In this document: one piece after another, positions 12,701 to 64,000 of the stretch
Position numbering within the stretch: position 1 is the stretch's first letter
Layout of the letters: every line of letters starts with the position of its first letter
Assembly (NCBI GenBank): GCA_964036665.1
Contig: OZ038532.1
Location: 8,494,001 to 8,558,000 of the forward strand
Origin: Gordius sp. MW1
Taxonomy: Eukaryota; Nematomorpha; Gordioida; Gordea; Gordiidae
Direction of reading: 5' to 3'
Length of the DNA stretch: 64,000 nt
The notes under the pieces: generated by a model
The model's database searches: none
Told to the model about the DNA's origin: nothing
What the model saw: only the letters and a program-made list of their open reading frames with translations
Translations under genes and position numbers: made by a program

Positions 12701-12803
12701 TGAAGCTGCCATGTTGTTTGGAGTTGCTTTTTACAGCCGGCTTCCGACCTGACGCCAACCCTCCACTTTTTTCACACGGACTTGGGACCGTCGTTGGTAG
12801 TGT
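9720..12803 (-). mobile_element. Full-length RTE-clade non-LTR retrotransposon
   Basis: A 3084-bp element bounded by a perfect 20-bp duplication. It has a 91-bp 5' leader (12713-12803), one ORF and only about 5 bp after the stop. The leader is conserved in the copies ending at 51725 and 62093 (the + strand motif CGCCAACCCTCCACT is shared), supporting a functional 5' end or promoter. An intact ORF and an undiverged duplication indicate a young insertion. Confidence 0.95.
9725..12712 (-). CDS. RTE endonuclease/reverse transcriptase, 995 aa
   Basis: This protein would nick DNA and copy its own RNA at the nick (target-primed reverse transcription). The N-terminal apurinic-type endonuclease (about residues 52-290) shows ASWNVGTLTGK, the catalytic-Glu motif LQETRW, GADFNGHVG, the VDYILVKR region with its Asp, and HRPVVLD with the catalytic His. 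The RT (about 510-780) shows GIKLTCHSLKLLERV, QFGFVAGKSTMDPIFAL, FIDLEKAYDTVPRD (first Asp), GLHQGSALSPFLFN and the palm YADD. The C-terminal domain follows, with FTYLGSLLHQEGG, LLYGSETWAV and RLRWYGHVLRR, and a basic stretch (RRGRGRP). The start is the first ATG (12710-12712) and there are no internal stops. Length and motif order match the RTE clade, relatives of which are often annotated as craniofacial development protein 2-like. All catalytic residues I can check are present, so it may be active. Confidence 0.95.
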   Translation of the reverse strand: MAASNTKIYQNARASSPNDAHCIIRPCNVKSIQGLPPHSQRRRLRNLVVKRTRVASWNVGTLTGKSIEVAQMLKRRRIHIACLQETRWHGTKARELGDGYKLYYSGSPSRKNGVGIVLSDSYKDKVVEVKRCSDRLMCIKLADQGGLVNVICAYSPQVGCSEIEKDEFYEKLENEIRYVKPDENLIIGADFNGHVGKERGVYERNHGGHGYGVKNKEGEKLLQMAQAYDMAIVNTFFQKRTEHLATYSSGDHLTQVDYILVKRKNLWQVKDCKVIPGEEIAKQHRPVVLDIARKIFPERRKVYTPRTKYEKLKDDRANEMFHARATPLLKVAGLGGDINKRWATVANVLKETAFQILGRTKGGRAHKRELWWWNDSVKGAIEEKKAWYLRWYKTKIGEDYVAYREAKRKAKTAVAIAKNKAYTEMANKLDTKGGDIVMHKLAKIREKKSRDVGTLKVIKSEEGRTLCKPKEVIKRWKDYFQNMMNKTNDRRPLERVGPNSNLVLPFQAYEVGAQLTKMRKGKALGPDDLPIEAWLGCKGEGIDIMTGLFNAMLYESRIPDQWRESTIIPIYKGKGDAQECGNFRGIKLTCHSLKLLERVIVKRLNDEVCLSPNQFGFVAGKSTMDPIFALKQTMEKYGDIRKNLHMVFIDLEKAYDTVPRDLIWWSLRARNIPEGYVRLIKEMYNGAVASVRTTVGETKPFRIMIGLHQGSALSPFLFNLIMDTITKDLHKPAPWTMLYADDIVLCDETREGVFHQAKKWSERFSEFGLKVSEKKTVYMQTMGGSPQMHKNGGPMYTEVDKFTYLGSLLHQEGGCTAEVHSRIKKAWLKWRSISGVMCDKKIPIWLKSKAYKTIVRPVLLYGSETWAVTTAEEKLLQVTEMRMVRWSLGYTKLDRKTNESLMTKMGIQATKDFLRENRLRWYGHVLRREEDDVTRRTLEMDVPGRRGRGRPRATWKRLVKKDMDVKQMEIGMAFTRLRWKRLLKTYPTSVGFPTR

Positions 12804-41592: not shown

Positions 41593-43095
41593 TTACAAGC
41601 CTAACACCTTTTTCCCTAATGCAAAAAAGGTGTTTTTTACTGAAGGATCTAGGAAAAGTGAAATGAATACACTTAGGGCGTTGTTACCGTACTTTGTTAT
41701 GTAAGCAATATTTTGCATCCACAATTCAGTTTTAGTCTCAAACACATCTGCCCATGGCTGGTATATAAACATATAAACTGCCATAGGTAAAGTATTCAGT
41801 ATAAAATATACATTGTGTACCATCATGAGTATAGTTATTCGAAATTCTTGTTTTCTCATTCCGTAAGGCAAACTCAAAACTTTTGTGTCATTTTTCTTGA
41901 CCTTGACTTCAGTCGCGCATGGTGCCATGTTATAAGAAATTTGTTCGATTGGCGCTGTTTCTATGCAATTTACTTTAGTAGGCTGACGCCAAAGAGAATT
42001 TTTGGATGGCCCGACACTTATTTTATTTTTTAGGCAATCATTCCCTAATTTAACACTTACTCGTGTGACTTTAGTGCTTGTCCTAAATTTCTGAAGTGAC
42101 TTTGTCATAACTATGGATAAATGCCCTTTGATCGTTAATCTTTTAGATTTTTTTTCGCACGTTTGTTTTGTTCTCTGATGTCTGCGTTGTGAGATTTTTA
42201 CGCAACAATAAATGATAATAATATTTGCGATAGAAGATATTATAAACGGGATTACAGCCATGAGTACGTTCGTCAATTTACGATATGTGGCAAACCACCA
42301 CGTGAGAGGAACGTGAACATAAATTGTTCTTGTCTTTTTAACTTTTGAAACATTGATGAAAAGGAAATTAGAACTGTTCTTGCTAATCAAAACTTTCGCA
42401 AACATATATGGTATGGTAAAGTTCAAAGCAGAGATGTTTTTAAAGAGCTTACAATAATCGATTGAGGATGTTTTTGGCAAAGAATCCAGGGGAGCTGCCC
42501 CGAAACCCCAAGCATAGGGAACAACCAGAGCAAAGCTCACCAAAAAGCTCCCGATCAATATGTACCTAATCAAAGAGTTTGTAACGTTGTTTTTGTATGT
42601 ATGGGGCATCATTAAGGCCCAGAGTCTATCTAAAGAAATCATGATTCTGATTATGTTACTAAAGTGGGTAAAAAGATCCATTAAAGGAAAGCCTATTTTA
42701 AGGGCGTATACGACAAACCACCAGTTTTTGCGGCACGTCACATTGCAGCTCATGTAAACCGACGGGGTAATAATTAAATTTAAGCATACTAAACAATCTG
42801 AGATGGTGAGCGTTCTTATGTAGTAATAAATGTTTGTTTTGGGACTTGATCGTTTTCTAACAGTATTCCAATTTAACGGAGGTGCATTAGGCTGGGTAGT
42901 ATGCAATTCTCTGCTTCTTCTAACAGTACGGGTAGAAGGATCTGAAGTAGCAACTTGGTGATGCTTAGAAAAACACCAAAGATGAAGTATATTTCCTATG
43001 ATTCCTAACCCGATTACAATGGGCATGATGAATCCATAAGTAATGTGAATTGTGTAAAGCACGTATTCTTCGCTTAGGAATGTTTTGCAAGTCAT
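41593..43095 (-). CDS. Rhodopsin-like GPCR, probably peptide receptor
   Basis: The only intact host-type gene. The first in-frame ATG is 43093-43095, giving 500 aa in one exon. Seven hydrophobic segments are visible: TM1 about 14-40 (with GN), TM2 about 90-115 (with SD), TM3 about 125-150, TM4 about 172-195, TM5 about 272-300, TM6 about 422-447 and TM7 about 460-487. A Cys before TM3 (VTCRKNWW) and one in extracellular loop 2 could form the usual disulfide. The DRY motif is DRL (SLDRLWA) and TM7 has LDPSVK instead of NPxxY. Intracellular loop 3 is long and basic (about 120 residues), and the C-tail is very short. N-x-T/S sites occur in loop 2. The form resembles FMRFamide-type peptide receptors of invertebrates, but the ligand is unknown. 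It would sit in the plasma membrane and couple to G proteins. Confidence 0.85.
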   Translation of the reverse strand: MTCKTFLSEEYVLYTIHITYGFIMPIVIGLGIIGNILHLWCFSKHHQVATSDPSTRTVRRSRELHTTQPNAPPLNWNTVRKRSSPKTNIYYYIRTLTISDCLVCLNLIITPSVYMSCNVTCRKNWWFVVYALKIGFPLMDLFTHFSNIIRIMISLDRLWALMMPHTYKNNVTNSLIRYILIGSFLVSFALVVPYAWGFGAAPLDSLPKTSSIDYCKLFKNISALNFTIPYMFAKVLISKNSSNFLFINVSKVKKTRTIYVHVPLTWWFATYRKLTNVLMAVIPFIISSIANIIIIYCCVKISQRRHQRTKQTCEKKSKRLTIKGHLSIVMTKSLQKFRTSTKVTRVSVKLGNDCLKNKISVGPSKNSLWRQPTKVNCIETAPIEQISYNMAPCATEVKVKKNDTKVLSLPYGMRKQEFRITILMMVHNVYFILNTLPMAVYMFIYQPWADVFETKTELWMQNIAYITKYGNNALSVFISLFLDPSVKNTFFALGKKVLGL

Positions 43096-43612
43096 AATTA
43101 ACAATTAGCCTTACCTAGGAATTTTCAAAGTGTCATGCTTGTAGAAAAAAAAGCATTTATATATATAAAGTTCAAGGTCATCCTATTAATTTAAAATTTT
43201 GGTTTGTCCATTAAGAAATTAATGTTAAGCTTTTTAATAATCACATTCATTGACAAAAGTGTCTTCCTAACGCAATCCATTGTGAATTTTTAATTAAATT
43301 AGTTAAAGGTTTCTAATAATATTTTATAATTTCAATTTTATTCGCTTTTATCTAGATTAGATCTTTTGTTCAATTTTAAATAACACACTTTTTGAGGGAA
43401 ACCATTCAATTTTAAAATTAATGCATTGATCTCCGTTAATCTTGCGTGTAGCTTAGATTGTAAAATTGTCTGTAATATGTTTGAAAAATGTGCAAAATAG
43501 ATTAAATCGAAATCGCGCGAACTTTGTAATAATGTGTCTTTTGAGTGTGGTTAAATCATTAAACAGGTTACATTAAAGTTACCTCATTAATGGCAATTTA
43601 GTTGGCTATATA
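43096..43612. other. Upstream region of the GPCR
   Basis: AT-rich. No TATA box or other promoter element stands out. A CCTAGGTAAGGCTAATTG-like stretch just upstream of the ATG (minus strand) contains a GTAAG, so a 5' exon is conceivable. Confidence 0.35.
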
Positions 43613-44532: not shown

Positions 44533-45044
44533 AGCTATGCAATTTATAGGCTCGTTTTTGGTTGTCCCTCCGTCTTGGTTAACTTGCAATTTTTCAATAT
44601 TGCTGTGTTACGACTACGAGTTAATAGCTGTGGATTTATGCTTTTGTATAAGTTTTTATTCTGCTTTCGCAAATAGACTAGCTACTGATTGGCTTTAATT
44701 TTATCTACCTCGCCCAAGTCCATATTTAATTATTGTTTATGGGTCCGACTTATTAACTTTATACAATTTCCTTTTGACATTTTGTCTAAGTTGTAGCTTT
44801 ATAGCGGATAAATGCCTATCTGGCTAAATAATTACCTGCAATTTGCTTAAATTTAATTTTTCTGACACGGCCAGAGGCCAATTACTGCTTTATGTATTAC
44901 ATTTGGCAACTTGTCTAGGTTGCTGATTTACAAAGTTGCGAAACTGATCAAACAATTCCTTTAAAATTAATGATGACCGTTGCTTACTTCAAAGGCCAAA
45001 ATCCAATTTTATCTTAGTTGTTGTTGTATATGGCCAATTAATTT
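44533..45044 (+). mobile_element. HINE 5' portion, cut by an LTR
   Basis: GCTATGCAATTTATAGGCTCG followed by a short GTCC/CTCC stretch, then interior sequence related to 39900-39980 and to the minus strand of 62500-62900 (CTCGCCCAAGTCC and the CGGCCAGAGGCC region). It stops where the gypsy LTR starts at 45045. Confidence 0.6.
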
Positions 45045-45646
45045 TGGAAGTAATCTAATTAGTGGTGGGAATAATGTTTAAAGTAATTAGTGATGTGAAT
45101 AAATGGGTGAGAAACTATTTATCGTCTGCGGGAGATTCCTAATTAATGGTTTGTTTAAGGCACTAATTAAAAGCAAACGAATATGTAAAAGGCATGCCTC
45201 GTGCTAATGGAGATGTGCAGTACATCGACCTGTCGTAAGGTTAAGGGCATCCCACAGGCAAATTGAGAAGTGCAGCACATCGACAGGGTTTATAAGGCTG
45301 GATTTTTCCCTGCAATAATCATATTTTTTCCCCTACTTAGAACTCGTTCGTCCTGCTACAACTATCTCCGAAAACCCAGACCGCCTCTAACTCAATATAT
45401 TTATTAGTCCTTAGACATCACCCAAGCTCGCCTATTTTTCGCACTTATATTTCAACCGCCCACAAATACTTGATATTGTTTAACACTTACATTTATATCC
45501 AAGATATTGTTGTCCTACCCATTTGATTAATTATAACTCGCATTCGTCCATTGGATAGATATAAAGATATATTAGATCTTGTCAATAAACCTTTATCAAA
45601 ATCTAAATCGAACTAGTCAGCTACTAAATTGGTAGCACGATTACGA
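45045..45646 (+). repeat. Ty3/gypsy 5' LTR
   Basis: About 600 bp starting TGGAAGTAATCTA. An inverted copy lies at 62934-63559. Visible signals are TTTATAAGGCTGG (about 45288), a possible TATA-like box, and CAATAAACC (about 45585), a polyadenylation-like signal. A GCAGTACATCGACC / GCAGCACATCGACA pair is repeated inside. The 3' edge is uncertain because GGTAGCA words are repeated there. Confidence 0.75.
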
Positions 45647-46064
45647 AATTGGTAGCAGGAGGCTGAAAATTTAAACCCACGACTAGAGGCGAGGACCCAA
45701 ATTTTCATTAAAGATCTCTACCTTCAATCCCGATCCACTGACTCGAGGCACTAAACGTTCGATTTTTCGTACAAAAAAAAGGACCACGTAAGTTTCTTAA
45801 TCTTTTTATTAATAAAAAAATCTTTATTTATAATCATTATCTTAATATTAATATTTATAATTAGTTTATACAGTACCTCCTTTAGATGGACCTTAATTAA
45901 ATTGTTGGTGTCGACGCTATAAATTTAAATTCTTTATTATTGATTAGTCACTTATCTTATTTTTATTATCATGTTTGTACCAAAAACTTCGTTTAATTTT
46001 ATTAATTTTGTTATAAGCGAAAAGATGTTTTTCATTTTTAATACTGATAATAGTTGTAATCATA

Positions 46065-46680
46065 ATGTTAATTAAAATGCACCGCGTAGAACAAGTTTAC
46101 AGGGTTAAGACCTCGGTGCCTTGCTTTAATTGTAATAGGATGGGGCATATCAGGCCTAATTGTAGATTGTTTAACAATTTTCAAAATAACACAGCTCAAT
46201 ATAGACAACGCTCGTGCGACCCATATAGGCGACGGGATGGCAACGTTCATGTATATAACGATATTTAGGATAATAATAATAATTTTGGTGTCAGGGCCAC
46301 GCAGGAAAATTCTTTTAATCCTGGATCGCGTAACTTTAATTGACGCTCGATTGGCGCTGACAACACTAATATTGTTTATACTAATTTTTTATTCTTAACA
46401 AACCCTGGTAACTTATTCAAATAATGAGGTAGGTTCCTATCAGATTCCGGGGCCTCAATCTCCGTAATGAGTAAATGTAATTTTTTAAAATTCTAACCCT
46501 TTAAAAATATTAATTAATGTCATGTTTTAGTAATACAATTAGACGGTTCGAATATTACAATTTTAGGGGGTACTAAAATTCGAGTATGTGCAGGCGAGGA
46601 AGTTTTGGAATTAGAGTTATGTATTATCGATAAAAAAATAGATAATTATATGGGTTGGAATTGGATAAAATGAATTGGTC
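46065..46680 (+). pseudogene. Ty3/gypsy Gag zinc knuckle and protease remnant
   Basis: 46065-46268 encodes a CCHC zinc knuckle (CFNCNRMGHIRPNC) with basic flanks, typical of the Gag nucleocapsid. After a shift, about 46430-46680 shows a protease-like DSGASISVMSK and further hydrophobic strands (NITILGGTKIRV). The capsid region between the LTR and 46065 is not recognisable. The start codon is not defined. Confidence 0.75.
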
Positions 46681-46994
46681 CTCTAGTTAATTGGTGGGAC
46701 ATTTGTAAAAATTATACGTGTAATAGTGATAGAAATATGAATATCAATTGTTTAACTGATGGCCATGGAACACCCGTTTCAAGGTAGCATCTATAAACGA
46801 GCATAAATCCTTAGTTGTAATTAATAAGGCAATAGACTAAGTAAATAAGCCAGCCTCGGTTTCAGGGGCAAGGGTTTTCGTTAATTGTGATAGTCAGTAC
46901 GTTGGAAAACTGTGGCATTATGACATTGATAAAATTAAAGCGAAATTTTTCGTGAAGAACTAGGTTGTTTGAATGATAACATTTTTCGATAAAA

Positions 46995-47691
46995 ATTAAC
47001 TCAGATGCAATTCCTCGATTTTGTCCGGCCCGTCGAATACCATTTATGTTGTTTGATAACGTCAATAACGTTATAGATAGTTGGTTAAAAGATAATATTA
47101 TCGAGCCAATAGAGTATTCTGAGTGGGCCACTCCGTCAGTTCCAGTTAAGAAAAATGACGGTAGTATACGGGTGTGGGCTGATTACAGAATTATTTTCAA
47201 ACATGCGATAGATGTTAAATACCCCCTACCCAGAATAGAAACGGTTTTAGCTAATTTAAAAGGTTCTAAATTCTTTTCAAAATTAGATCTTAGGAATGCT
47301 TACCTTCAGTTAAGTGTCGATGATAAGACGTCATAAAATTTTAACAATAAACATCGATAGAGGTTTGTTTGCTTTTAAACGATTACCTTTTGGTTTAAGT
47401 GTGTCTGCGCCAATTTTTCAACGAGCGATGGCTTCTATTTTTAATAATTTAGATGGCATATTTTCTATTTAGATGACATTTTATTAACGGGTTCAACGCA
47501 GGCCGAGCATGACTTACGATTAATAAATGTTTTAACATTAATTAAAAATAAAAATTTAGGCGTGTCAGCGCATAAATGCATTTTTGGTGTAACTGATTAC
47601 TTATTTAGGACATATAATATCCGATGGCTGGGTAAAACCTAATGTGATTAAAATTAAAGGTATTAAAAGTATTCAAAGGCCTAATAATAAT
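46995..47691 (+). pseudogene. Ty3/gypsy reverse transcriptase, first part
   Basis: RT thumb-side start (ARRIPFMLFD) and, in 47046-47336, DNIIEPIEYSEWATPSVPV, then WADYR and FSKLDLRNAYLQL. A stop follows. In other frames the block continues with the catalytic YLDD (about 47470) and the AHKCIFGV segment. The reading frame ends in AAT triplets at 47691, where the HINE is inserted. Homology resumes at 51968. Confidence 0.85.
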
Positions 47692-48642
47692 AACTAGGGC
47701 CTTCGGCCCTGGTGGGAAGGGGAGGGGGGAAGGGAAGGCGGGGAAGGGAAGGGGGGAGGGAGGTGCAGGAGGGAAGGGGAACGAAATTCATCTAAACTCC
47801 GTATAAACGTAGCATATTTGCTATGCAATTTATGGGCGAGAAAGGTGGGTAGGGGCGAGAATGTTTATGGGGGGGGGGGGGGGGGAGGGGTATAAATGCA
47901 AAATGATTAGTTAATTATTTATACAAATATTTAAAAAGTTAAATTTTTGTAAAACCTGCTATAAAATACTAATTAATACTTTATTATTTATTGAGGAAAT
48001 GTTTCCAATCAGATCTTAGCCATTGGTCATTTTTTCCATTACTTTGGCCAGTGATAATTTTTTCTAATGGTTAGCAGACAGCCATATAATTACCCTATAA
48101 TTATAATCTAGAAAATCGAATCGATTTTAATCCACTTTGGCCACTGGTTATTTTTTCCATTGGTCAGTAATCAGCAGACTGCCAAATACTGGCCAATAAT
48201 TAAGCTGGAGAAAAAATTTGACCTTAATCTCACTTTGGCCAGTGGTCACTATTTTTATTGGTCAGTAGCCAGCAAACGGCTTAATAGCCTAAATATAGAA
48301 AAAAAATTTGCTACACTTTGGCCAATGGTCATTTTTTCATTGGTTAGTAGCCAGGACACGGTCAAAAGGATATAAATACATAAAAGACGAAAAAAAACAC
48401 AAAAAAATTTCGATTCACAATTTAGCTAATCATTTTATTTATTGGTCAGCGGCCAGCGGACGGCCAAATAGTCATATATTAACAAGAACAATATATTAGT
48501 TTAAAAAAATCAAAGAAAATCCCCTCTCCGGGATTCGAACCCACATTAGTATAAGCATAGGCTTTTGTAGGGGAAGGGGGACACAGGGACCCATATTAGT
48601 AGAGGCATAGGCCCTTCTAGGGGAGGGCATAGGGTAATTATC

Positions 48643-48658
48643 AATGTTAACCTAATAT
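48643..48658. repeat. TSD of RTE copy, 3' side
   Basis: AATGTTAACCTAATAT recurs perfectly at 51726-51741. Confidence 0.92.
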
Positions 48659-51600
48659 TCTTCTTCTTCTTTATCAATTCGTAGGTCCCACATTCGTAGG
48701 GTTTTTTATCAGTTTCTTCCAACTAAATCGTGTTAGAGCGATATTGGGATCGATCTTCTTATTGAGCACTACTTTGTCCACTTGTCCTTTCCAGGTACCA
48801 CGAGGTCGACCTCTTCCTCTTTTTCCCTGCACTTATAAGTCTAGTACTATTCGATTGACGTCACTCGCATTTCTTCTCAAGATATGCCCATACCATCTTA
48901 GCCGATTTTCGTTAATATAGTCGGCTATTGGCTGAATACCCATTTTTTCTCTAAGACTTTCATTCGTCATATGGTCCAACTTTGTGTATCCCAAGCTCCA
49001 GCGTATCATTCTCATTTCCGTCGCTTTTAATAGTTTTTCTTGGGTCGCGTTCAAGGCCCATGTTTCACTTCCGTAGAGTAACACCGGTCTTACGATAGAT
49101 TTGTAAGCTTTACTCTTCAACCATATTGGCATCTTCTTGTCACACATTACACCGGATACGCTACGCCATTTTAACCATCCCTTCTGAATTCTTGCATTAA
49201 CTTCTTTCGCGCAACCTCCCTCTTGATGTAGCATCGAGCCGAGGTACGTAAACTTGTCAACTCTTGGGAATTTCAATTGTTCATTCATCGATTGTGTGCC
49301 TTCTGCGTTCATCTCCATGTATACCGTCTATCGGTCATTGACTTTGAGCCCATATCTAGCCAAACGTTTCGACCACTTATCGGCTTCTTCAATTACGATA
49401 TCCTTCTTTTCCTCGCATAATACTATATCATCGGCATATATCATACACCAAGGGGATGGCTTCTGTAAGTCCCTCGTTATCGTGTCTATAATAACGTTAA
49501 ATAGAAACGGACTTAGGGCAGAACCTTGGTGTAAACCAATATTGACCTGAAAGGGCTTAGACTGTCCAACTGTCGTTCGAACGCACGATGTTGAGGCTTC
49601 ATAGATATTTTTGATTAGCCGTACATATGCATCCGAGATGCTCTGTCTTCTCAAGCACCACCAAATCAATTCGCGGGGAACCGTGTCATATGCTTTCTTC
49701 AAGTCAATGAAGACCATGTGTAGATTCCTTCTTTTCCCTCCATACTTGTCCATAACTTGTCTTAGCGCAAAGATCGGGTCGATTGTGGATTTACCGGCCA
49801 CAAAACCAAATTGGGTAGTCGATATGTCCACCTCCGTCTTCAACCTTGCTACTAAGATTCTTTCCATCAGTTTCAAGGATTGGCATGTCAGCTTGATGCC
49901 TCTGTAATTACCACAATCTTGAGGGTCTCCTTTCCCTTTGAATATGGGTATGATCGTGCTTTGTCTCCATTGATCAGGGATGCGTTCTTCGGCCAATATC
50001 TTGTTGAATAACTTCGTCATAGTCGTGATTCCTTCTTCCCTGCACCCTACCAACGCTTCCAACGGAGTTCCGTCTGGTCCGTTAGCTTTTCCTTTTTGCA
50101 TCTTTTTCATTTGTACCCTAACTTCTTCTTCCTGAAATAGTTCGACCATATTCATGTTAGGCTAGGGGTTCTTTGTCATTTGCAACTTTCATGAGCTCGT
50201 TGAAATATCCTTTCCACCTTTCCAACACCTCCTTTGGCTTAAATAATGTGTGACCTTCTGAATTTTTGATTACTTTAAGTACCCCGACGTCACGACCTTT
50301 CTTCTCCCTTATCTTGGCCAATTTGTACATAAGCTTGTCACCCCCTCTTTGATCGAGTTTGTTGGATATCTCTGTGTACGCCGTATTTTTCGCTATGGCA
50401 ACCGCCTTCTTCGCAGAACTTTTTGCCTCCTTATAATCTTGATAATTCTCCGAATTTTTTGATACATGCCATCGCTTATATAGCGCTTTCTTGGTTTCGA
50501 TGATGTTTCTAACGGATTGGTCCCACCACCATAGTTCTCTATTCAGCGCTTTGCCCCCTTTGGTCTGCCCTAACACCTGAATGGCCGTTTCTTTTAGATG
50601 AGCGGTGATCATTGTCCAGTTGTCGTTCACGTTCCGTTCCAGAGCCTTGGCATTAAACAGCGTAGAGGCTTTCTGATGGTATTTTTCGTTTGTTGTCGTA
50701 TCCTTAAGCCTTTCGTACCTAATTCGGGGCTCATAAACTTTTCTCCTTTCGGAAAATATTCTTCTTTCAAGATTCATGACCAGTGGCCGATGTTGCCTGG
50801 CGATTTCTTCTCCCGATATTACTTTGCAGTCCTTAATCGTCCTTAAATCTCTTCGTCGTATAAGCAGATAATCAATTTGACTAAACCGCTTCCCACTTCT
50901 GTACGTCACGATATGTTCTTCACGTTTCTGAAAATAAGTGTTAACGATCGCCATGTCATATGCTTGGGAAACTTGTAGAAGTTATCTCCTTCCTTGTTCT
51001 TCATGCCATGCCCATGCCCTCCATGATTTCTTTCGTAATTTTGACGATCTTTTCCCACGTGGGCGTTGAAGTCTGCCCCAATAATTAGCCTTTCCTCCTG
51101 TCGTATTCCTTGTATTTCTTTTTCCAATGATTCGAAGGTGTCTTTTTCGGATACCAAACCCCCAATTTGTGGTGCGTAGCCACAAATAACGGTTAGGAGG
51201 CCACCTTGATCTTCGATCTTAACCCACATCAACCTATCTGAGCATCTTTTGACTTCAACAACCTTGTCCTTGAAGAATTCGCTGAGAACGATACCGACCC
51301 CGTTTCGACCTGTTGGTGACCAGCTGTAAAATAGCTTGTAACCCTCTCCTAGCTCTCGTGCCTTTGTTCCGTTCCATCTCGTTTCCTGTAGGCAAGCGAT
51401 GTGTATCTTTCTTCTTTTGAGTATCTGTGCGACCTCAATGCTTTTCCCCGTCAGCGTGCCCACGTTCCAGCTTGCTACCCCTAATTTGTCCACAACTAGA
51501 TTCCCCAACCGCCTTCGTTGAGAGTCAGGCGGTAACCCTTGTAAATTTTTCGCATTGCACGGGCGGATGATGCACTGGTCGTGTGAAGAGGACGCCCTAG

Positions 51601-51725
51601 CTTTCTTTTGTTACACTTTATTATTAGAAACTGTCATAATTTGGAAAAGGTTTTTTACAGCCGGTTTCCCACCTGACGCCAACCCTCCACTTTTTGCGCA
51701 CGGACTTGGGACCGTCGTTGGTGTT
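48659..51725 (-). mobile_element. Full-length but inactive RTE copy
   Basis: A 3.07-kb insertion between perfect 16-bp duplications, inside HINE copy B. The length is nearly that of the intact copy at 9720-12803. TTC repeats form the 3' tail (minus strand GAA), and the 5' leader matches the intact element. Confidence 0.92.
48833..51508 (-). pseudogene. RTE endonuclease/RT with frameshifts and a stop
   Basis: 51508-50906: endonuclease start (VASWNVGTLTGK, LQETRW, GADFNAHVG). A frameshift near 50960 shifts to 50954-50157, the endonuclease end and linker (HRPLVMNL). Another shift near 50156 leads to 50155-49328, RT with FIDLKKAYDTVPRE, GLHQGSALSPF and an intact YADD. A single nonsense codon at 49328-49330 separates the C-terminal part, 49318-48833 (FTYLGSMLHQEGG, RLRWYGHILRR). 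Catalytic residues are mostly intact, so inactivation looks fairly recent. Residues before VASWN are also disrupted. Confidence 0.92.
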
Positions 51726-51741
51726 AATGTTAACCTAATAT
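51726..51741. repeat. TSD of RTE copy, 5' side
   Basis: Identical to 48643-48658. Confidence 0.92.
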
Positions 51742-51967
51742 ACCAATTCAAAAAACGAAAAAAGAAATTTCGATTCACATTTTGGCCAATGGTCATTTTT
51801 TTCGTTGGTCAGTAGCCAGGAAACGGTCAAAAAATCATATTATCAATGGTATTAACAAGAACAATATATATTAAAAAATAATTTGCCCTCTACGGGTATC
51901 AAACTAGCAATTAAGTATGTTGGACGGACGGACAACAAAAAACGAGCCCATAAATTGCATAGCAATT

Positions 51968-52203
51968 AAAAAGGAGTTGTCTTCGATTTTAGGGCTTATG
52001 AATTATTATAGCAGATTTATTGATAACTACACCAAGTATTGTGGTCCCCTATATTATATTAATTAACTAAAGATAATGTTTTATTTAAATGGGAAGATAG
52101 AAAAGGTCAATGTTAATTTTTTGAAAAATAATTTGTTAAAAGACTCCACCTTAAAATGTTTTGATCCGAGTAAAGAGCACATCTTAAATGTTGATGCATC
52201 TAA
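51968..52203 (+). pseudogene. Ty3/gypsy RT connection and RNase H start
   Basis: Continues the gypsy frame after HINE B with KKELSSILGLMNYYSRFIDN, then a frameshifted stretch, then the first RNase H Asp in HILNVDAS. Interrupted at TAA (52201-52203) by the PIF/Harbinger element. RNase H resumes at 60048. Confidence 0.85.
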
Positions 52204-52368
52204 GGCTACGTCTTACCCCGCGTTCGTGATGACACGCGAATTGTAAATTAATTCGCACGAAAATAACAAATGTATTAATTAAATAGAAGGCGTTCATAGT
52301 GAAATCGCAGACAATTATTTTCGCACGCGAACAAAATAAGATACAACTCATTTTGTATTTTTCGCGCG

Positions 52369-53028
52369 ATGGGGAAAAAATTGAAATTGCATAATTATGA
52401 TCTGATCAATGATATTCGGGATATACCAATGATATATGATAAATTCCATGATGAATATAAGGATATTAAAAAAAAAGAATGAAGAATTTGAGAAACTAGC
52501 CCAAAAATACTTGGTCTCAAGTAATAATATAACTTTAAAATGCTAATTAGTTTAGGTGAAGATATAAAAGTAAGATGGAAGAATCTTAGAGACACATATA
52601 TGAAAGAGTTGAATAAGGCAAAAAATCTTAAAAGTGGAAGTGGTTTGACTACATATTATTGGCCTTATTTTACTGTGATGGACTTTTTAAGACCTACCTT
52701 AGAACCTAGGAGTCAATGGTCTAGTCTAGATAACTCAATAATGTATGGAGAAGATCTATCCATTAACCCTGATAGCATGTATTCAGATGCTTCTACTAGT
52801 AACAAGGAGAATGGTAAATTGATATTATATTAATTAATATTCTTCTAGAACCTCCAACTCCAAATATTGAAAAGAAAAGTGCAGAAAACAGTTTTTTGGA
52901 GAAAACCAGAACCAGCTGTCCTAGCTGTAGTTAAGGAAACGTTGAACAAAAGATCTGACAAGGGTAGAGAAAAATTGTCTAAACAAATTATTTTTCAATG
53001 CCTAAACTTTATATCTGATGATAAATAA
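52369..53028 (+). pseudogene. MADF (Myb/SANT-like) protein of PIF/Harbinger
   Basis: Second protein of PIF/Harbinger elements, which binds the transposon ends and helps bring the transposase to DNA. ATG at 52369. Exon 1 has the MADF start (LINDIRDIPMIYDKFHDEYK), then a one-base slip in a run of A near 52470, then NEEFEKLAQKYL. A 35-bp GT-AG intron (52521-52555) joins in frame to EDIKVRWKNLRDTYMKELNK and YYWPYFTVMDFLRP. A second 35-bp intron (52814-52848) leads to an exon that, after one more shift, ends KRSDKGREKLSKQ and a stop at 53026-53028. Only two small shifts separate it from an intact gene, so it is fairly young. Confidence 0.7.
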
Positions 53029-53130
53029 CAATGTAGATATTTATATATTTTATTATATTTGTAACATATGTACAACCAATAAAATAAATATGATATGTAC
53101 AAGATTTAGATATAGCAAATTGAATATATA

Positions 53131-53402
53131 TTACTGAGCTATCTTTTCAAAATCTTCTAAAGATGGAGATTTCAAACGTATGTGTTGAAAAATAAAGGAT
53201 ATTGCATTACATGTTTCAATCAAAATATAATGCATAGTTGATATTCCTATCTTATGTGAATAGCTTATTGATGGATAAGAATTTCCACAAGCCAAATATC
53301 TAAATTAAGATGTGTTAAAAAATTGATAATGCTTACCTGATAGTTATCATTAATTTTTTTTCAGGTGAAATGGAATATGCAGTTTCTTCTCTGTGATTTT
53401 AT
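53131..53402 (-). pseudogene. Harbinger transposase N-terminal remnant
   Basis: On the minus strand, 53402-53337 reads REETAYSISPEKKLMITI. Removing a 37-bp GT-AG intron (53300-53336) joins it in frame to RYLACGNSYPSISYSHKIG and the following STMHYILIETCNAI (to 53131), ending in a stop. This is the conserved region before the DDE core of Harbinger transposases. The core itself, with the Asp and Glu residues, is missing, so the element cannot move by itself. Confidence 0.75.
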
Positions 53403-53844
53403 CTTGGTAGTTATTTTTTCTAATATATAATAAAAAGATTCCTAAAAACTAATGAAAACTAATTCATTTATACCTTGCTCATCCTAAAATAATTGAAAAA
53501 TTTCACTGGACAGTTCACTAATTTAGGAAAAGTAGTGTAATATTAATTTTCTTTTACACTATTTACATTGATCTTATTGACCCTTTTTTCATAGCATAAT
53601 ATAAATATAAGTATTTTAACGTTAGGTGTGAAACCGTTTTAAGCGAATTAAATCGCACGCAACATGAACAACGATCGCCTGCGAATTGCTTAAACAATTT
53701 CGCGAAACAAAATTCGCTTCGCTTTTTTTCGCTTCGCGCGTCATCACGAACGCGGGGTAATACGCGCTAGCTACAACTTCAAGCCCGCAATTTTTTTTCT
53801 GTCCAAAACGCGCTTCACGTTTCATGGATACAATTTTTTTAATC

Positions 53845-54680
53845 ATTTTACATGTTTAGGATTGTCAAGTTTAGAAAATAAATATACATTATCAACTTAA
53901 TATATTGTTATTAATGTTTAGGATTGTCAAGTTTAGAAAATAAATATACATTTTATTGTCTACAATATCAACTTAATATATTGTTATTAATGTTTAGGAT
54001 TGTCAAGTTTAGAAAATAAATATACATTATCAACTTAATATATTGTTATTAATGTTTAGGATTGTCAAGTTTAGAAAATAAATATACATTTTATTGTCTA
54101 CAATATCAACTTAATATATTGTTATTAATGTTTAGGATTGTCAAGTTTAGAAAATAAATATACATTATCAACTTAATATATTGTTATTAATGTTTAGGAT
54201 TGTCAAGTTTAGAAAATAAATATACATTTTATTGTCTACACTACAATATCAACTTAATATATTGTTATTAATGTTTAGGATTGTCAAGTTTAGAAAATAA
54301 ATATACATTATCAACTTAATATATTGTTATTAATGTTTAGGATTGTCAAGTTTAGAAAATAAATATACATTTTATTGTCATTGTTATTAATGTTTAGGAT
54401 TGTCAAGTTTAGAATAAATATACATTATCAACTTAATATATTAGATTAATGTTTAGGATTGTCAAGTTTAGAAAATAAATATACATTATCAACTTAATAT
54501 ATTGTTATTAATGTATAGGATTGTCAAGTTTGGAAAATAAATATACATTATCAACTTAATATATTAGCTTAATGTTTAGGATTGTCAAGTTTAGAAAATA
54601 AATATACATTTTATTGTCTACAATATCAACTTAATATATTGTTATTAATGTTTAGGATTGTCAAATTTAGTAAATAAATA
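53845..54680. repeat. Minisatellite with alternating 62/77-bp units
   Basis: About 13 copies of a unit containing TGTTTAGGATTGTCAAGTTT, AGAAAATAAATATACATT and ATCAACTTAATATATTG. Starts near 53851, 53914, 53991, 54053, 54130, 54192 and 54273 alternate between about 62 and 77 bp. The longer form has an extra TTATTGTCTACA. It is thus a dimeric higher-order repeat that loses its regularity after 54330. Confidence 0.92.
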
Positions 54681-54699
54681 TAATTAAGCTTATACTTCA

Positions 54700-55079
54700 A
54701 AATACACATATCATTTTATTAGTATTCAATATAAAATAAATTATAAACATCAATTAATTTTCAAATAAAGTAGAACATTTAGTTTAAACAAAAATTTATT
54801 AGCCTACCAGACTTAAAGTGTGAATTTATTAGCATTTTATCCAAAAGATTTAGTATACTTAAAAATCCTATAAAAACAAAGCTTAAAAAGGCTGAAAAGA
54901 TAGTTCAGGGTATTTGTTCACTACAAAATATACTGATAATAAAGCTTTGCCTATATATGATTATGAGATTAACAATACATAACAGTTGAAAATATCTTTC
55001 AACCCAACAGAGAGATATGAGATATTTGTACAAATTCCAATAATTTAAATACTTTATTCATATATAAATACAAATTTTG
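54700..55079. other. AT-rich interior of outer PIF element
   Basis: No coding remnant recognised. Confidence 0.35.
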
Positions 55080-55400
55080 TAAAAGATTTATTAATTAAAA
55101 TTTATTGGGATCAGATAAGGCTTTAAAATCTTGAAGAGAATCAAGGAATGTCTTTTCCAGATCCTGAGAAGTTCTTTGCTTCTCTGCCTCTATGTCTATT
55201 TTCTTCAGAGTCATTTAGTTTTGCAATAATCCACTTTTAAAGTTAGTATTTTAATTGATATTAGTTACCAGCTAAGTTGCATTATGTGGCCATCAAACCC
55301 CAGGCTTATTCCATTCAATTATTCATATGGAGCTTTTCATGTGCCTTTCCACACTTCTTAATAATGTTTTTACTTGATCTTGTTCTTGTCTATCTATCTA
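55080..55400 (-). pseudogene. Possible accessory-protein remnant of outer PIF element
   Basis: The minus strand has open pieces such as LKKIDIEAEKQRTSQDLEKT followed by FLDSLQDFKAL, a charged helical stretch like the C-terminal part of Myb/SANT-type proteins of PIF/Harbinger elements. An upstream piece reads QDQVKTLLRSVERHMKS. Stops lie between. Assignment rests on position and composition only. Confidence 0.3.
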
Positions 55401-55619
55401 AACATATTAGGTCAGAGTAATAGCTTACTCAATAGCTTGTAGCTTGTTGATCGCGGTTGAGTTGATACGGCAAAATTACAAAAACGACGTCACGTTCGTA
55501 TTAAGACGGGTCTATGTTTTAACATGCATTCGCTTTTTCAAGCTAGCTACAAAAGCGCGTATTAAGACGCACCCTAATCATAGACTAAAATACCATAGCC
55601 TGCCGAACAGCTGATAATT

Positions 55620-58600
55620 CAGAAGTAACTATATAAATCGCCATGCTTGTGGAAATTTTGATTCCAGTCGAAAAGACAAAGCTGTAAAAGGCAAAGTAAA
55701 TGTACGTATCACACTATATATTAAAAATATCATATTATTTTATTAAGTATGAACAATAAAACTATTAAAAAGGTATACCTTTATATTTTATTGTTATATT
55801 AGTTAAAATAAATATAATAAATTTGCTATGTGTACTATTGTATATAATTATTTAAGTTAACATTATAGATTATTGTTGAAATCGCAAAAACACGTTCATA
55901 ATATTACGATATTCTATCATGCTATAGTTTATGAAGTAATAGTAGGTTATCTTGTTCCATTCCTAAGTTAAAAAAGGTAAGAGGAGCCTTTTAATGTAAA
56001 GCACAATGTCATGGAAAAAAGTGGTGGAAGCCAACTTTTTTCACTAAGCATTGATTAATAGATTGCTCACTAGACTACTCTGCCTTATAAAAGCACGTCT
56101 GCTATTTATAAAACAAATAAATTTTAACATTTTTATTATTTTAAGACTAAATATACATAATATAATTTAAAAGCATTATTTAATTAGAAATTGTTAGAAG
56201 CTAATCGCACAATCTTAGGAAATAGTTTTAAAAATTACTTGAATAAAACAATTGATAAACCTTCACTAGCAAATCCTTTTTTTACATTCATAATTTTTTT
56301 TATTGTGAAATATATTTCCTAATAATATATAAATTTAGAAAAAAAAATTTGAATGAATAATATTGTTAATTGAAACTACAAATTAGCATAAATAAAATGT
56401 TATTGATTTAAAATAAAATATCTTTAGTTAATTTATGCAAATACATTTTAAAGTTTTATTTGAAACATTAAAATTCAAGGTATTTGACTATAACATTGGA
56501 TTTATATACAAGAATCACACCTGTTTAACATATCTAATGGTCAATTGTCCACCCCTACCTTCTATATTAACTCATTCCAATCAGCTAAACTTAGATCTTT
56601 TCTCTTTCTCACTTACTCTTTAAGTTAGCTAATATACTCCTTTAAATTGCATATTTTAAATAACAATGACATTATGTTCAAAACAACTACCTTAAGGCTA
56701 TAAAATTATTAATGGCACATTAAATTTATACATGGTTTTTAACAGTATTAAATAGAAAAGTTTAATTAACAATAAAATATAAAAAATGGGCAAAATCATT
56801 ATTCATGTTAATTTGCCATCTTTATTTTCTGACTTAAGAGCCAAGTATGGGTTTAAACGACAATACTGATTTTGATTAAAAACAATAAACATTTGGTCAA
56901 AAATTTATTATATTAATTTTCACAAGGCTCTTTATTAATGAATCAAATAAGTTATGCTAAAATTAATCATTTCATATTTTCTGTTCCTGTAACAGACTTA
57001 TTTTCCTTGATTAATATGTACCATATTAATATTCATCATTTTTTGTAGGGCTCATAGTTGCTAATAAAACAATGAGTATTTACAAAATATAAAATAAGTT
57101 ACAATGGTCTGTTCCTTGTACGCTGTGGCAAGCATCTAACATAAGTTGTGCATCTTTTAGTTAGAGAACTTTAAAGATGTTTTTAAACATTCAAAAAAAT
57201 AACTTTGGGGCATATGCATACTGGCTGGCACAGATATATTAGAGGCACAAACATCGCCTCACACAATCAATATAAATCTAATATAAAGTTACATAAGGGA
57301 GTATATATCTGGGATTGCACAGGTATATTAGAGGTAAAAACATCACCTAATACAGCAATCAATATAATTATGACATAAAGTTACTTGACAACATTCTACT
57401 ATTTTTGAGCATTAATCTAAAATTAACAATAGGACTACAAAGATTTATAATGTGATTAAATTGACAAAAAATTACTTTGAATATTTGACCAATGTGCATA
57501 ATATTTACTTGGAATAAATGAGATATATGAGGTGAAATGGGATGCCAAGATTGAACTATTAGCATATTCACTTGTTTGATGTGGTATTTGTATTTACAAC
57601 TATAAAATTTAAACCAATGTGCATAATATTTACTTGAAATGGATGAGATATATGAGGTGGAATGAAATGCCAAGATTGAACTATTAGCATATTAACGAAT
57701 ATTAGAGATGTCATTCAATATACTTTGATGTGGTATATTGAGATGCTCTTTGGTCACCAAAAATGAATTTGCATATTTTATAGCCCTCCCAGGACATTTT
57801 TTATTTCTACAACGCAGGTAAATTTGAGAATTTTTTCCTGTTTTATATTTGGTGTAATGATAATTATTAAAACTATAAATAGGTTGATTTTTTGAGTTAA
57901 CATGTTATTCGGAAATTAAAAATTTGAAGTTGGCGCTAAATATCGACAAATTTGGTGATCTTCTTGGTGATCTTAAGATCACCATTTGCCTTTAAAAACT
58001 TTGCCTTTACAAACGAAACGGGAAATTTTAACTGCGTAAAGAACTAAACGTAATATATTTCGTTCTATTTTACTACATTTTTTTTAAATTTATAAATTAA
58101 GTTACTAAATCATAAAAAAACATTTAGTAAAGAAAAAATATAATTAAGGAAAGAGAAAACACCATTGTTTTTGAATTTGAATAATCTTTTAAGAAAAAAT
58201 GAATATTTTACGATTTAGAATGATAAAGAGAAATATAAATATAGCGCCTTCTATAATATATTTTATTTAAAGTATTAATTGAATATGAAAGATACAACTT
58301 TACATAAAACGATACCGGGCATCATGCAAGATTTAAAAAATAAAAATATTTTAATAAATTAACTAATTGTCAATAAATATCCTTTAAAAACAATGGTTTT
58401 ATAAAATTTTTGCCTAATGTTAGTTTTAAATTCTTGGTTTAAAATATTGCAAAAATATGAAGTAAAATTTTGCTATACATATTAATTATTAATTTAACCA
58501 ATAATTGTAAATAATTCCATGAGCCTAATTCCTGATCAACAATGTGATTAATTAAAGATAAAAAAATGTTAGATCTAAGTGTGTTTTTAGTATGGAAGTG

Positions 58601-58928
58601 AGAGGAGTATCACCAAAATAATTTGTAATTTTAATTATTTTATTTCTTAGAGTTTTCACAGTTTTTTTAATGCTTTATAATCATGTCCCTTCTCTTTTCT
58701 TTCTTAAACTCATTGCATATGAATGATCTTTCATTACTAAAAAATTTTAAAAATTATAAGACCTAGTATTTAATGTATTGCACATTATCTTGGGGAAGAT
58801 ACTGAACATCTAAATATATAAATTTATTATATGTTTATATATTATAACGATATTATACAGTATATAAATAACAGGGAAAAAATATAATAATGTAACCTTT
58901 TTTAAATATGATAATGTAAATTTTTTTC
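55620..58928. other. Interior of element X, no gene recognised
   Basis: Mostly A+T with short ORFs that show no motifs. Apart from the repeats near 57.5 kb, nothing can be named. Confidence 0.4.
57485..57695. repeat. Direct repeat of about 80-100 bp within element X
   Basis: 57490-57575 and 57612-57697 share CCAATGTGCATAATATTTAC, ATGAGATATATGAGGTG and GCCAAGATTGAACTATTAGC. The 101-codon minus-strand ORF here is a by-product. Words like GGCATATTAGAGGTA are also repeated around 57235 and 57325. Confidence 0.75.
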
Positions 58929-59112
58929 CTATAGCTGTTTGTCACATTTAGTTGTCAGCTCCCTCAAGTAGGTTCTCCATGTATTCCTGCACTTACACCA
59001 GCTTAACATTAGCTCGTACCTTCTAAAGTCCTTATCTATTTTATGCTTCCAAGTCAGTTTAGGCCTCCCTCTCTTCTTGATATGATTTGCCAAGTGACTT
59101 TCCTCCCAACAG
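58929..59112 (-). pseudogene. C-terminal tail of second LINE family
   Basis: The minus strand reads GRPKLTWKHKIDKDFRRYEL, then a W-rich segment and LRELTTKCDKQL, ending at a stop (58929-58931). It corresponds to the 39581-39751 tail. The rest of the LINE is absent. Confidence 0.5.
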
Positions 59113-59727
59113 AAAAAAATTATGATAATGTATCTAATTATTTACTTGCTGTGAGGGAAATTTGTTAAATCTGTTAATCCTTATGACTGATCTTGTTCAA
59201 TTTAATTCAAATTTAAAAATTACTTACAATAAATTTTGGGATGGCTCAGTATTTCCTTGATCAAGAGACTGATCTAGTTTAATCAAGCACAGTATTTTCT
59301 TTAAGGTACAATTTAAACTTCTATTTTTATTAAAATCCTGGGGTCGAAAGTGGTTACTGCAGATACTTGAATGTTTTTTAAATTTAAATTTAGGGCCCAT
59401 CAATTTAATCTATTTAGACAATAACTCTGGATTTTTGGAAATCTAAAAATATACATAAATTCATTTATAATTACTTGTGAAATGAAAGCCTTTTGCTATT
59501 TTCTTTGTTAAGGTAAGATATGGAGTTCTTTACTGAGCAAGACCTCATATTCCAACAAATTTTTTTTTTAATTTTTTTATGTTATTAATTTATTTAAAAA
59601 AAATATTAAAAATTTCATTTTTGATGAAATTTAGCATATATTTTAGGATATCAATTTTACCTTAATTTCAAGAATTTCCACTTGGGCGACTTCTTAGGTT
59701 ACTTTCTGATGTTAATGTAAAAAAAGG

Positions 59728-59990
59728 TTCGGGTATAAGCGTCCGACACTTTTGAGACCGGTTTTCACACATATTCATACGCATGTAATATGTACAATTA
59801 AAACAAAATAAGTTATATCAAAATGTATAATATCTATTTTATAAATAAATACATATTATCAAATAAATAACTGAATATAACCCTAACCCTGGCCTATATA
59901 TTACATTTTACATATATTACATTTTGCGCAGAGTTATTTTACCTCTCATTGTGATTGGGTTATCTTAGAAAGTGTCGGACGGATGCCTAA
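59728..59990. mobile_element. Small MITE at the right end of element X
   Basis: Ends GGTATAAGCGTCCGACACTTT and AAAGTGTCGGACGGATGCC are inverted relative to each other. The interior holds AACCCTAACCCTGGCCTATAT and repeated TATATTACATTTTGC words, the latter shared with 7300-7355 in HINE copy A. No ORF. Confidence 0.5.
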
Positions 59991-60047
59991 AAACCGTAAA
60001 AAAACAGCTGTTCGGCAGTCTATGGTATTATTAGTCTATGACCCTAA

Positions 60048-60420
60048 CACGAGTATAGGAGGAGCTTTATGTCAGGTCGAGGATGGAATTAAACATCCTG
60101 TAATTTATTTTTCGCGTAAACTTAAAAGAGCGGAACGCAATTACTCTGTAATTAAAAAAGAAGCGCTTGCTATAACATTTGGTTTAAAACGATGAAGAGA
60201 ATATTTAAAAGGCAAGACCTTTACCGTTTTTACCGATCACAAGCCTTTAATTAATTTTTACCAAAAGATTAATACTGAATATTTGATGTCCCCACGTTTG
60301 CAAAGGTGGTTTTTAATACTTGGTAATGTTTCTTAAACATTAAAATATCGTAAAGGTAAAAATAATTGCTTAGCAGACGTTTTGTCGCGTAGTGGTAATA
60401 ACGAGATAGTTGACAACGGT
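60048..60420 (+). pseudogene. Ty3/gypsy RNase H, second part
   Basis: Resumes exactly after the ACCCTAA flank of element X, in frame with 52203. It reads SIGGALCQVEDG, then VIYFSRKLKRAERNYSVI and KKEALAITFGLKR, a stop in place of Trp, TDHKPLINFYQK and the tail NNCLADVLSR. Two stops interrupt it. Confidence 0.88.
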
Positions 60421-60599
60421 ATGGACACGCAAACTAAAGAGCATTACGTAATGTATTAAAAATTGTTGAGTTTAACACTATAGTTAAGAGCTCAGAGACT
60501 GACCCGGATTTTATTAAAATAAAAGATATTTTATTGGGTAATGAGGATAGTCAGTCGGTACCTTTAGCTTTTAAACATGTGCTTAATGAGCTTTATTTG

Positions 60600-61290
60600 G
60601 AGGATAACGTAATTGAACGAGACGAAAAAGTTGTCATACCTACCGAGCTACGTTAGGATGTTTTAAAGGTACTTCACGAAGGGCATACAGGTATTACAAA
60701 GATGAAAGACATGGCTAGAAGGTATGTCTGTTGGCCTAAGATAACGAAAGATATTGAAAGACAGGTTTGACAATGTGAATGATGCAAGGCAAAGACGGCC
60801 ATGCCTCGCAGAGACAAAGCGGCGAGATGGACACGTCCTAGAGAACCATGGGATCGCATACACATTGATTTTTTCGAACTTGATAAAAACGCTATATTTT
60901 AATTATAGATGCTTTTTTGGGTTGGACTGAATTTAAAAATGTTTTTAATATCTTTACCCTAGTAACGCTAAATTTTTTAAAAGATATAATTAGTTGGTAT
61001 GGTTAAGGTGCCTAGTAACCGATAACGGCAGATCATTTACTAGCGCGGAGTTCAATATATTTTGTGAAAAATGGAAAATAAGACATGTATTAACACCACC
61101 ATATCATCCATGTTCTAATGGACAGGTTGAGAGATATGTAGGTATAGTTAAAAAATGGATTAGGTTATCACAGACTGGTAAGAATGGTACCTGGCTCTAT
61201 AGATTATATCATAACATGTCACTAAGGTATTCAGATCGTTTACCAATAGGCGAAGAGTTTCTTGAACGTAAATTAAGATATTACCTGATT
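60600..61290 (+). pseudogene. Ty3/gypsy integrase
   Basis: Integrase HHCC finger: LHEGHTGITKMKDMARRYV, then a Cys pair separated by Glu and a TGA stop, so the finger is broken. WDRIHIDF marks the first catalytic Asp. 60994-61260 shows VTDNGRSFTSAEF (second Asp) and PYHPCSNGQVERYVGIVKKW with the catalytic Glu about 35 residues later. Homology ends near 61290, where an RTE fragment begins. The C-terminus, polypurine tract and direct 3' LTR are not present downstream. Confidence 0.9.
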
Positions 61291-62093
61291 ATGATCTTCG
61301 CCTTTTTGAAAATAGGTGTCAACCATCGCCATGTCATTTGCTTGGATACTTGGAGAAATTTTTCCACTTCTTTGTTCTGCAGACCATGCCCATAGCCTCC
61401 ATGATTGCGTTCATACCCGAGGCGATCTTTCCCTACATGAGCGTTGAAATCTGCCCCAATAATTAGCCTTTCTTCCTGTCCTATTCCTTATATTTTTTTT
61501 TCCAATGAATCGAAGAATATGTCTTTCTCGATTCCGGACACCCAATTTGGGTAGCATACGCGCACATAACGGTTAGGAGGCCCCCTTGATTTGCAATCTT
61601 CACCCACATTAGCCTGTCGGAACAACGCTTGACTTCCACCACCTTGTCCTTGAACGATTCGCTTAGAACGATACCGACCCCGTTTTTACGATTTGGTGAC
61701 CCACTGTAGAAAAGCTTGTATCCTTCTCCTAATTCCAGAGCTTTCGTTCCGTTTCACCTCATCTCTTGTAGGCAAGCGATGTGTATCTTTCTTCTTTTTA
61801 GCATTTGTGCGACCTCGATGCTCTTCCCCGTCAACGTTCCCACATTCCAGCACGTTGTTCGCATTCTTTCAACAACTATAACCGCCTTCGTTGTGAGTTG
61901 GGCAGTAACCCTAGTGTATTTTTCACATTGCACGGGCGGGGTATGCAGTGCGCGTCGTTTGTGGAGGACGCCCTAGCCTTTTCTTGTCTTGCTTGAACTA
62001 TCATAATTTTGAAATTGGTTTTATAGCCGGTTTCCGACCTGACGCCAACCCTCCACTATTTGCACACGGACTTGGGATCGTCGTAGGTAGTGT
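61291..62093 (-). pseudogene. RTE 5' fragment (endonuclease part only)
   Basis: Minus strand from the conserved 5' leader at 62093 to about 61291: NVGTLTGKSIEVAQ, the catalytic Glu in LQEMR followed by a stop in place of Trp, YSGSPNRKNGVGIVL, and near the left edge the NTYFQK equivalent (DTYFQKGEDH). RT and the 3' tail are absent, the opposite of the usual 5' truncation. This suggests deletion after insertion. Confidence 0.85.
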
Positions 62094-62933: not shown

Positions 62934-63559
62934 GTAATCGTGCTACCAATTTAGTAATCGTGCTACCAATTTAGCAGCTGACAAGTTCGATATAGATTTT
63001 GATACAGGTTTATTGACAAGATCCAATATATCTTTATTTCTATCCAATGGACAAATGCCAGTTATAATAATATTTAATCAAATGGGTAGGACAACAATAT
63101 CTTGGATATAAATGTAAGCGTTAAACGATATCAAGTATCTGTGGGCGGTAAAAATATAAGTGCGAAAAATAAGCGAGCTTGGGTGATGTCTAAGGGCTAA
63201 TGTATATATTGAGTTAGGGGCGGTCTGGGTTTTGGAGATAGTTGCAGCAGGACGAACGAGTTCTAAGTAGGAAAAAAAATATGATTATTGCAGGGTAAAA
63301 ATCCAGCCTTATAAACCCTGTCGATGTACTACACTTCCCAATTTGCCTGAGGGATGCCCTTAACCTTACGACAGGTCGATGTACTGCACATCTCCATTAG
63401 CATGAGGCATGCCTTTTACATATTCGTCTGCTTCTAATTAGTGCCTTAAACAAACCATTAATTAGGAATCTCCCGCAGACGATAAATAGTTTCTCACCCA
63501 TTTATTCACATCACTAATTACTTTAAACATTATTCCCACCACTAAATAGATTACTTCCA
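62934..63559 (-). repeat. Inverted solo LTR of the 45-kb gypsy family
   Basis: The reverse complement matches 45045-45646 along its full length, ending GATTACTTCCA. It has an extra GGTAGCACGATTAC unit at its U5 end and scattered substitutions. No internal gypsy sequence adjoins it on either side. Confidence 0.85.
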
Positions 63560-64000
63560 AAACTAATTTATGTGCTAGGGGGGTGGGGTCAAACACTATA
63601 ATTAGAATCGTATAATAAAGGAAAAAACCTCATTATCACTAAAAACATTTTAACCCATTCTAAATTCTATGTCGGAACTTGAGAGAAATATTTGTGAGAG
63701 TCAAGCGGATACTAATTCGTTGTTAGAGGTAATGCGTATTACATAAATGTTTTTTATTAAACCCTCCAAAGTACTTAATTTAATATCACCTTTAGATTTA
63801 GAAATTTAGGTAATTCAATAGTTTCATTTAAAAAAAGTTCCTGCTTGAAAATTTTTAGGTTTTCCCCCAATATTTTTGAAAATGGAAATGTTTTGGGTTA
63901 CATATGCCCCATAAGATGCCTGAAAGTCTTTTTTAATGTTTTCACAATTATTTTATTGCTTTTTTTAAAAATTATGGGCTTAATACGAGGTGTAGAAATT
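63560..64000. other. AT-rich DNA
   Basis: Nothing recognised to the end of the window. Confidence 0.4.

Follow-up and report, generated by a model that had tools for sequence, protein, structure and literature searches.

Here we describe a nest of transposons in the genome of the horsehair worm Gordius sp. MW1, found in a 64,000-nt window of contig OZ038532.1 (C6:8494001-8558000; all positions are coordinates within this window, and features lie on the forward strand unless marked (-)). The RNase H region of a gypsy element is interrupted between positions 52203 and 60048 by five insertions in three tiers: an outer PIF-like element, an inner PIF/Harbinger element and three further elements, here termed X, Y and Z. 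It follows from the nesting that the gypsy copy was entered by the outer PIF, which then received the inner PIF and X, and that Y and Z arrived last, within X. Only the relative ages of the inner PIF and X, and of Y and Z, are left unordered by the nesting. We consider it very likely that the locus records the serial invasion of one gypsy copy by cut-and-paste elements. Copies were sought throughout the genome (211.8 Mb in 12 contigs), and L-numbers denote loci elsewhere in it.

As mapped, the gypsy host (tier 0) comprises an upstream piece (46439..47693), a left RNase H arm (51967..52203) ending at the TAA of 52201-52203, and a right arm with RNase H and downstream sequence (60048..61290). 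The frame of the right arm matches Pfam RT_RNaseH (E = 2e-13), the RNase H of gypsy/Ty3 elements, and both arms carry CTAA at the break. Seven gypsy relatives (L002-L008) were aligned to each arm separately by BLAST. All seven match the upstream piece (82-87%), which in them is continuous with the stretch from 51967, as well as the left arm (83.5-89.5%) and the right arm (90-91%). In every one of them the RNase H site is uninterrupted, the last base of the left arm adjoining the first base of the right; the site reads CTAA in three and CCAA in four, and the protein across it is D-A-S-N-T throughout. The wider comparison covered 40 scored places per arm, window included, among which those with one arm only are uninformative on the join. 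Pairing the arms by genome coordinates took in, besides the window, 39/39 left-arm and 37/39 right-arm places, the two right-arm places left out both starting inside the query. Both arms could be paired in 23 gypsy copies besides that of the window, and in 22 of them they abut exactly. An initial annotation of the stretch had placed the RNase H break at 52203 and 60048, and these comparisons bear it out: none of the seven relatives has extra or missing RNase H sequence at the join. Its further claim, that removing the inserts restores the frame, holds for the junction codon, where the left frame enters the TAA as TCT-AA and the frame of the right arm continues with AAC. It does not hold for the arms as a whole, since on the left the junction frame opens only at 52067 and on the right it meets a stop at 60195. 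The gypsy arms of the window are broken elsewhere, and no gene is restored by removing the inserts.

The exception among the 23 pairs is L107 on C1 (C1:27856740-27857790), where the arms are 955 bases apart and an unrelated insert of ~953 bp lies at most ~3 bp from this RNase H site. This insert was rejected as a copy of any window element: besides both gypsy arms, the locus gives only short weak matches in the window. Among the other loci compared, the insert matches 101 bp in the flank of L012 and 45 bp in L026.

The outer PIF-like element (tier 1) occupies 52204..55574, has the termini GGCTACGTCTTA/TAAGACGCACCC and is flanked by a TAA duplication, its left copy read directly at 52201..52203 and its right copy at 60045-60047, as the initial annotation had proposed. 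It is interrupted by the inner element and contains a tandem array of 62/76-bp units (53852..54686). A query of 884 bases (54690-55573) recovered 39 further genome places, each covering at least 739 bases. Of 19 other loci, 18 hold a copy with both ends (1306-1365 bp); the left terminal inverted repeat (TIR) is intact as GGCTACGTCTTAATACGCGC in all 18, whereas in the window GGCTACGTCTTA is followed by the inner element. At the nineteenth locus (L034) the left end was not found with a search motif consisting of the uninterrupted TIR, by which an interrupted TIR would show only as missing. Identical TTA or TAA flanks bound 13 of the 18 copies, so that the outer family has both the TIRs and the 3-bp TWA duplication of PIF/Harbinger elements. 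No coding member was seen among the copies compared, for which no dedicated transposase search was made. At L044 (C2:14182616-14183497 region), an outer-family PIF is flanked by CGCGTATTAA and TTAAGACGTAGC with a 4-bp duplication, TTAA; it looks as if this element sits in the TTAA of another outer-family TIR.

The inner PIF/Harbinger element (tier 2; 52216..53757; TIR CCCCGCGTTCGTGATGAC, termini CCCCGCG/CGCGGGG) is located in the left TIR of the outer PIF. In the window it is preceded by TTA and followed by TAA. The element itself stands as first annotated, but the TA in common, which had been given as its flanks, is one base short of the 3-bp rule of its family. Twelve other copies have both ends in one locus, and eight of these have a perfect 3-bp duplication (seven TWA, one TGA), giving the TWA duplication of PIF/Harbinger. 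A 2-bp TA (ISL2EU-type) inserter is ruled out, since the relatives make 3-bp duplications. The family also has a transposase: coordinate comparison places seven of the 49 genome matches to DDE_Tnp_4 inside longer inner-family copies. In these seven members the domain lies between stretches matching the 5' and 3' parts of the window copy, which is therefore a copy without transposase; in most of the seven the match to the window ends near 53092-53133 and resumes at 53135. The window copy has kept a remnant of the MADF gene (MADF_DNA_bdg, E = 2.4e-8, and 2e-8 in L010). This MADF/Myb-like second protein supports the assignment to PIF/Harbinger.

X (tier 2; 55579..60040; TIR CATAGACTAATAATACC) is interrupted by Y and Z and lies across the outer-PIF/gypsy junction, in agreement with its first placement on the right junction of the outer PIF. 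Its target duplications read directly as ACCCTAAT (55571..55578) and ACCCTAAC (60041..60048), the latter including the right TAA of the outer PIF (60045-60047). The initial annotation had reported 7-bp flanks, ACCCTAA; the duplication is confirmed, but its length is 8 bp with 7/8 bases matching. Because the right copy ends in a gypsy base present in all seven relatives, the mismatch is probably a change in the left copy. The 8-mer consists of the last four bases of the outer PIF, its TAA copy and one gypsy base. It thus spans the outer-PIF/gypsy junction, which places the insertion of X after that of the outer PIF. Since this junction is unique, the empty site of X cannot be found elsewhere in the genome; the two halves of the target are seen apart, in other outer-PIF and gypsy copies. 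For nine X copies, picked since both ends were placeable, the end regions were retrieved; this choice biases the sample toward insert-free copies. Eight kept both ends, the ninth being without the left TIR, and all eight have an 8-bp duplication, seven perfect and one with one mismatch.

On sequence grounds we file X with the P superfamily, since a relative with the right TIR of X encodes a P-type transposase. In this relative, L106 on C2, the coding region lies between X-like pieces and the right TIR of X, and the flanking body is also common to X; the match to X is at the right end. The region contains PF12017 (E = 8e-17), PF21787 (E = 5e-34), PF21788 (E = 1.9e-17) and PF21789 (E = 2.7e-14). 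Of the domains of P-type transposases, it encodes the helix-turn-helix (HTH), the two parts of the RNase H and the GTP-binding insertion domain. One piece of the P transposase, searched against solved structures, gave 0 hits. By Pfam, the window copy of X lacks a transposase and shows no more than a THAP fragment below threshold. An assignment to hAT, guessed from the 8-bp duplication, was replaced by the P superfamily after the THAP fragment and the L106 transposase were found.

The initial annotation had considered the interval fully explained by three elements. This does not stand, as X holds two more, Y and Z, with perfect 9-bp duplications and copies elsewhere. Nearly all copies recovered with the query 55578-57000 begin at 55660, a few bases from it or farther inside, and not at the TIR of X. 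With the queries 57000-58900 and 58900-60040, two families meet at 58021, and a third stretch, 59726-59995, occurs without X. The first insertion, Y (tier 3; 55660..58020), has the 9-bp duplication GGAAATTTT, a FLYWCH remnant and weak TIRs. Among nine other copies with both ends, six have perfect 9-bp duplications and one a duplication of 8 bp. From the 9-bp duplication and the FLYWCH-like piece, Y looks like a Mutator-like element. The second insertion, Z (tier 3; 59726..59995), is a 270-bp miniature inverted-repeat transposable element (MITE) with the 9-bp duplication GTAAAAAAA, both copies perfect. It is present in 15 other places at 96-98%, without X sequence, among the matches listed. The one other copy in which its duplication was examined likewise has 9 bp, GATATAAAT; tested against Mutator-like elements, duplication length alone would not settle the family of Z. 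All nine fetched X copies are without Y, with a single GGAAATTTT, and without Z, with a single GTAAAAAAA. The duplications of X, Y and Z are not due to chance, because their lengths recur in other X and Y copies and in one other Z copy.

The nesting admits only the relative order that the initial annotation had given: gypsy first, the outer PIF next, and the inner PIF and X after it. Private substitutions amount to 3.3% in gypsy, 2.7% in the outer PIF, 0.6% in X and 0.8% in Y. The divergence of X is significantly below that of the outer PIF and that of Y is also lower, in agreement with the nesting order. Empty sites, which the initial annotation had proposed to seek for every element, were seen in other copies for the outer PIF, the inner PIF, Y and Z; the exception is X with its unique junction.

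We propose that a PIF-like non-autonomous element, the outer PIF, would have inserted at a TAA in the gypsy RNase H, after which an internally deleted PIF/Harbinger element would have entered a TTAA within its left TIR. Independently, the non-autonomous P-superfamily element X would have entered across the right junction of the outer element. Finally, the putative Mutator-like Y and the 270-bp MITE Z would have inserted into X. Each transposase would have left its characteristic target length (3, 3, 8, 9 and 9 bp for the outer PIF, inner PIF, X, Y and Z), and longer members of the families may have provided the absent transposases in trans. At the inner PIF, the base missing from the duplication could reflect a later deletion or imprecise repair.

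Several observations weigh against this reading. Matching flanks or duplications are missing from five of the 18 outer-family copies (L033, L035, L044, L047, L048), four of the 12 inner-family copies (L014, L017, L021, L022) and two of the nine Y copies. The FLYWCH match in Y (E = 9.3e-5) scores 23.0 bits against a Pfam cut-off of 23.6, and the THAP match in X (59224-59406) is below the curated Pfam cut-off. Private-substitution counts vary with the number of copies sampled, which is unequal between layers; gypsy and the outer PIF do not differ significantly (p = 0.42), and Z is not placeable by divergence (4/268). The duplication of the inner PIF is irregular, one base short of the 3-bp duplication expected at a TTAA target. 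Its 5' part carries 6.5% private changes (55/842), above the 2.7% of its outer PIF host, and differs from its 3' part with 2.15% (12/559; p = 0.0001); the whole element, compared with three long copies, has 3.06% (34/1110). Judged by these values, the inner copy cannot serve as a clock, and it may descend from a mosaic lineage. Dating it by divergence was dropped because the two halves disagree. The private substitutions of the inner PIF and of Z are uninformative on order.

The unequal halves and irregular duplication of the inner element could point to recombination or gene conversion between repeats, instead of a separate insertion of every element, as the source of part of the stack. We regard this as highly improbable, as the other four layers have target duplications and agree to the single base with insert-free sites, and matched 8- and 9-bp duplications are not a product of recombination. 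The one outer TIR pair and one pair of flanks of X would fit a stack of three elements only, with X as a single 4.4-kb TIR element. A single-element X is refuted by the nine X copies without Y and Z exactly at the duplicated 9-mers, and Y and Z are present elsewhere without X, which leaves this alternative scarcely credible. That an assembly artefact brought the repeats together is extremely unlikely: the repeats are many and we had contig sequence alone, with no reads, but the junction duplications are what insertion predicts, and chimeric joins would not make them. Serial insertion remains our preferred reading.

The 2-bp duplication in the window and the 4-bp TTAA at L044 raise the rather doubtful idea that PIF elements repeatedly land on the TTAA in the outer-PIF TIR, with irregular duplication lengths, and would in this way start nests of their own kind. 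As L107 carries a different insert within ~3 bp of the gypsy RNase H site, that site, too, may be a favoured target.

Nested transposons of this kind are common. REANNOTATE (PMC2672092) describes the ordering of nested transposable-element stacks by mutual interruption. As in such nests, younger elements here interrupt older ones and the order is read from the nesting; the difference is that this site has received only cut-and-paste DNA elements, five in number. PIF/Harbinger elements are described as DNA transposons with TIRs and a 3-bp duplication (PMC2213677). Both PIF families of the window resemble them in their TIRs and TWA duplications, and the longer copies of the inner family have the DDE transposase and the MADF/Myb-like gene, whereas both window copies are non-autonomous and the duplication of the inner copy is one base short. 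The P superfamily is characterised by an 8-bp duplication and a THAP domain. X shares the 8-bp duplications and its right-end relative encodes Tnp_P_element HTH and TNP-like domains, but the window copy departs from the superfamily in its sub-threshold THAP fragment and missing transposase. Animal Mutator-like elements have a 9-bp duplication and a FLYWCH finger, which Y resembles in its 9-bp duplications and FLYWCH-like piece and from which it differs in its weak TIRs. Judged by titles and abstract openings, we found no literature on transposons in horsehair worms.

The gypsy copy has been split a second time. Position 51968, from which the initial annotation started, lies at the edge of a separate insertion and is not the gypsy start: a 4.3-kb RTE-like segment of the type without long terminal repeats (non-LTR; 47694..51966 (-); RVT_1, E = 7.4e-31) breaks gypsy at 47693/51967, a site across which all seven relatives are continuous, and gypsy continues upstream at 46439-47693. 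Related repeats (~83-bp unit at 48231) lie near both ends of this segment (48041-48517 and 51750-51881) and also occur in window arrays at 3062-3628 and 6300-7134, which is unusual for a non-LTR element. Downstream, the match to all seven gypsy relatives stops at 61290, where an RTE-like fragment begins; this piece (61290-62088) resembles 50912-51722 at 79%. The mapped gypsy pieces are flanked by an inverted pair (45036-45660 and 62938-63568) that is 93.7% identical. Elsewhere on the contig, C6:19306950-19346100 holds five consecutive gypsy RNase H matches spaced ~8.9 kb apart and a sixth in inverted orientation, and looks like a tandem gypsy array. The window further contains an uninterrupted 995-amino-acid frame for the endonuclease and reverse transcriptase of an RTE-like element (9725-12712 (-)) and a 503-amino-acid frame resembling a seven-transmembrane receptor (41596-43104 (-)), with 7tm_1 just under the Pfam cut-off. 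All seven protein matches of the latter at E <= 0.001 are from Gordionus sp. m RMFG-2023, at 35-38% identity.

This is otherwise a routine transposon history, and the case is clean, not surprising. Five DNA-transposon insertions, apparently from three superfamilies, are placed in a clean relative chronology with internal checks, and the non-autonomous X is linked to a relative with a P-type transposase.
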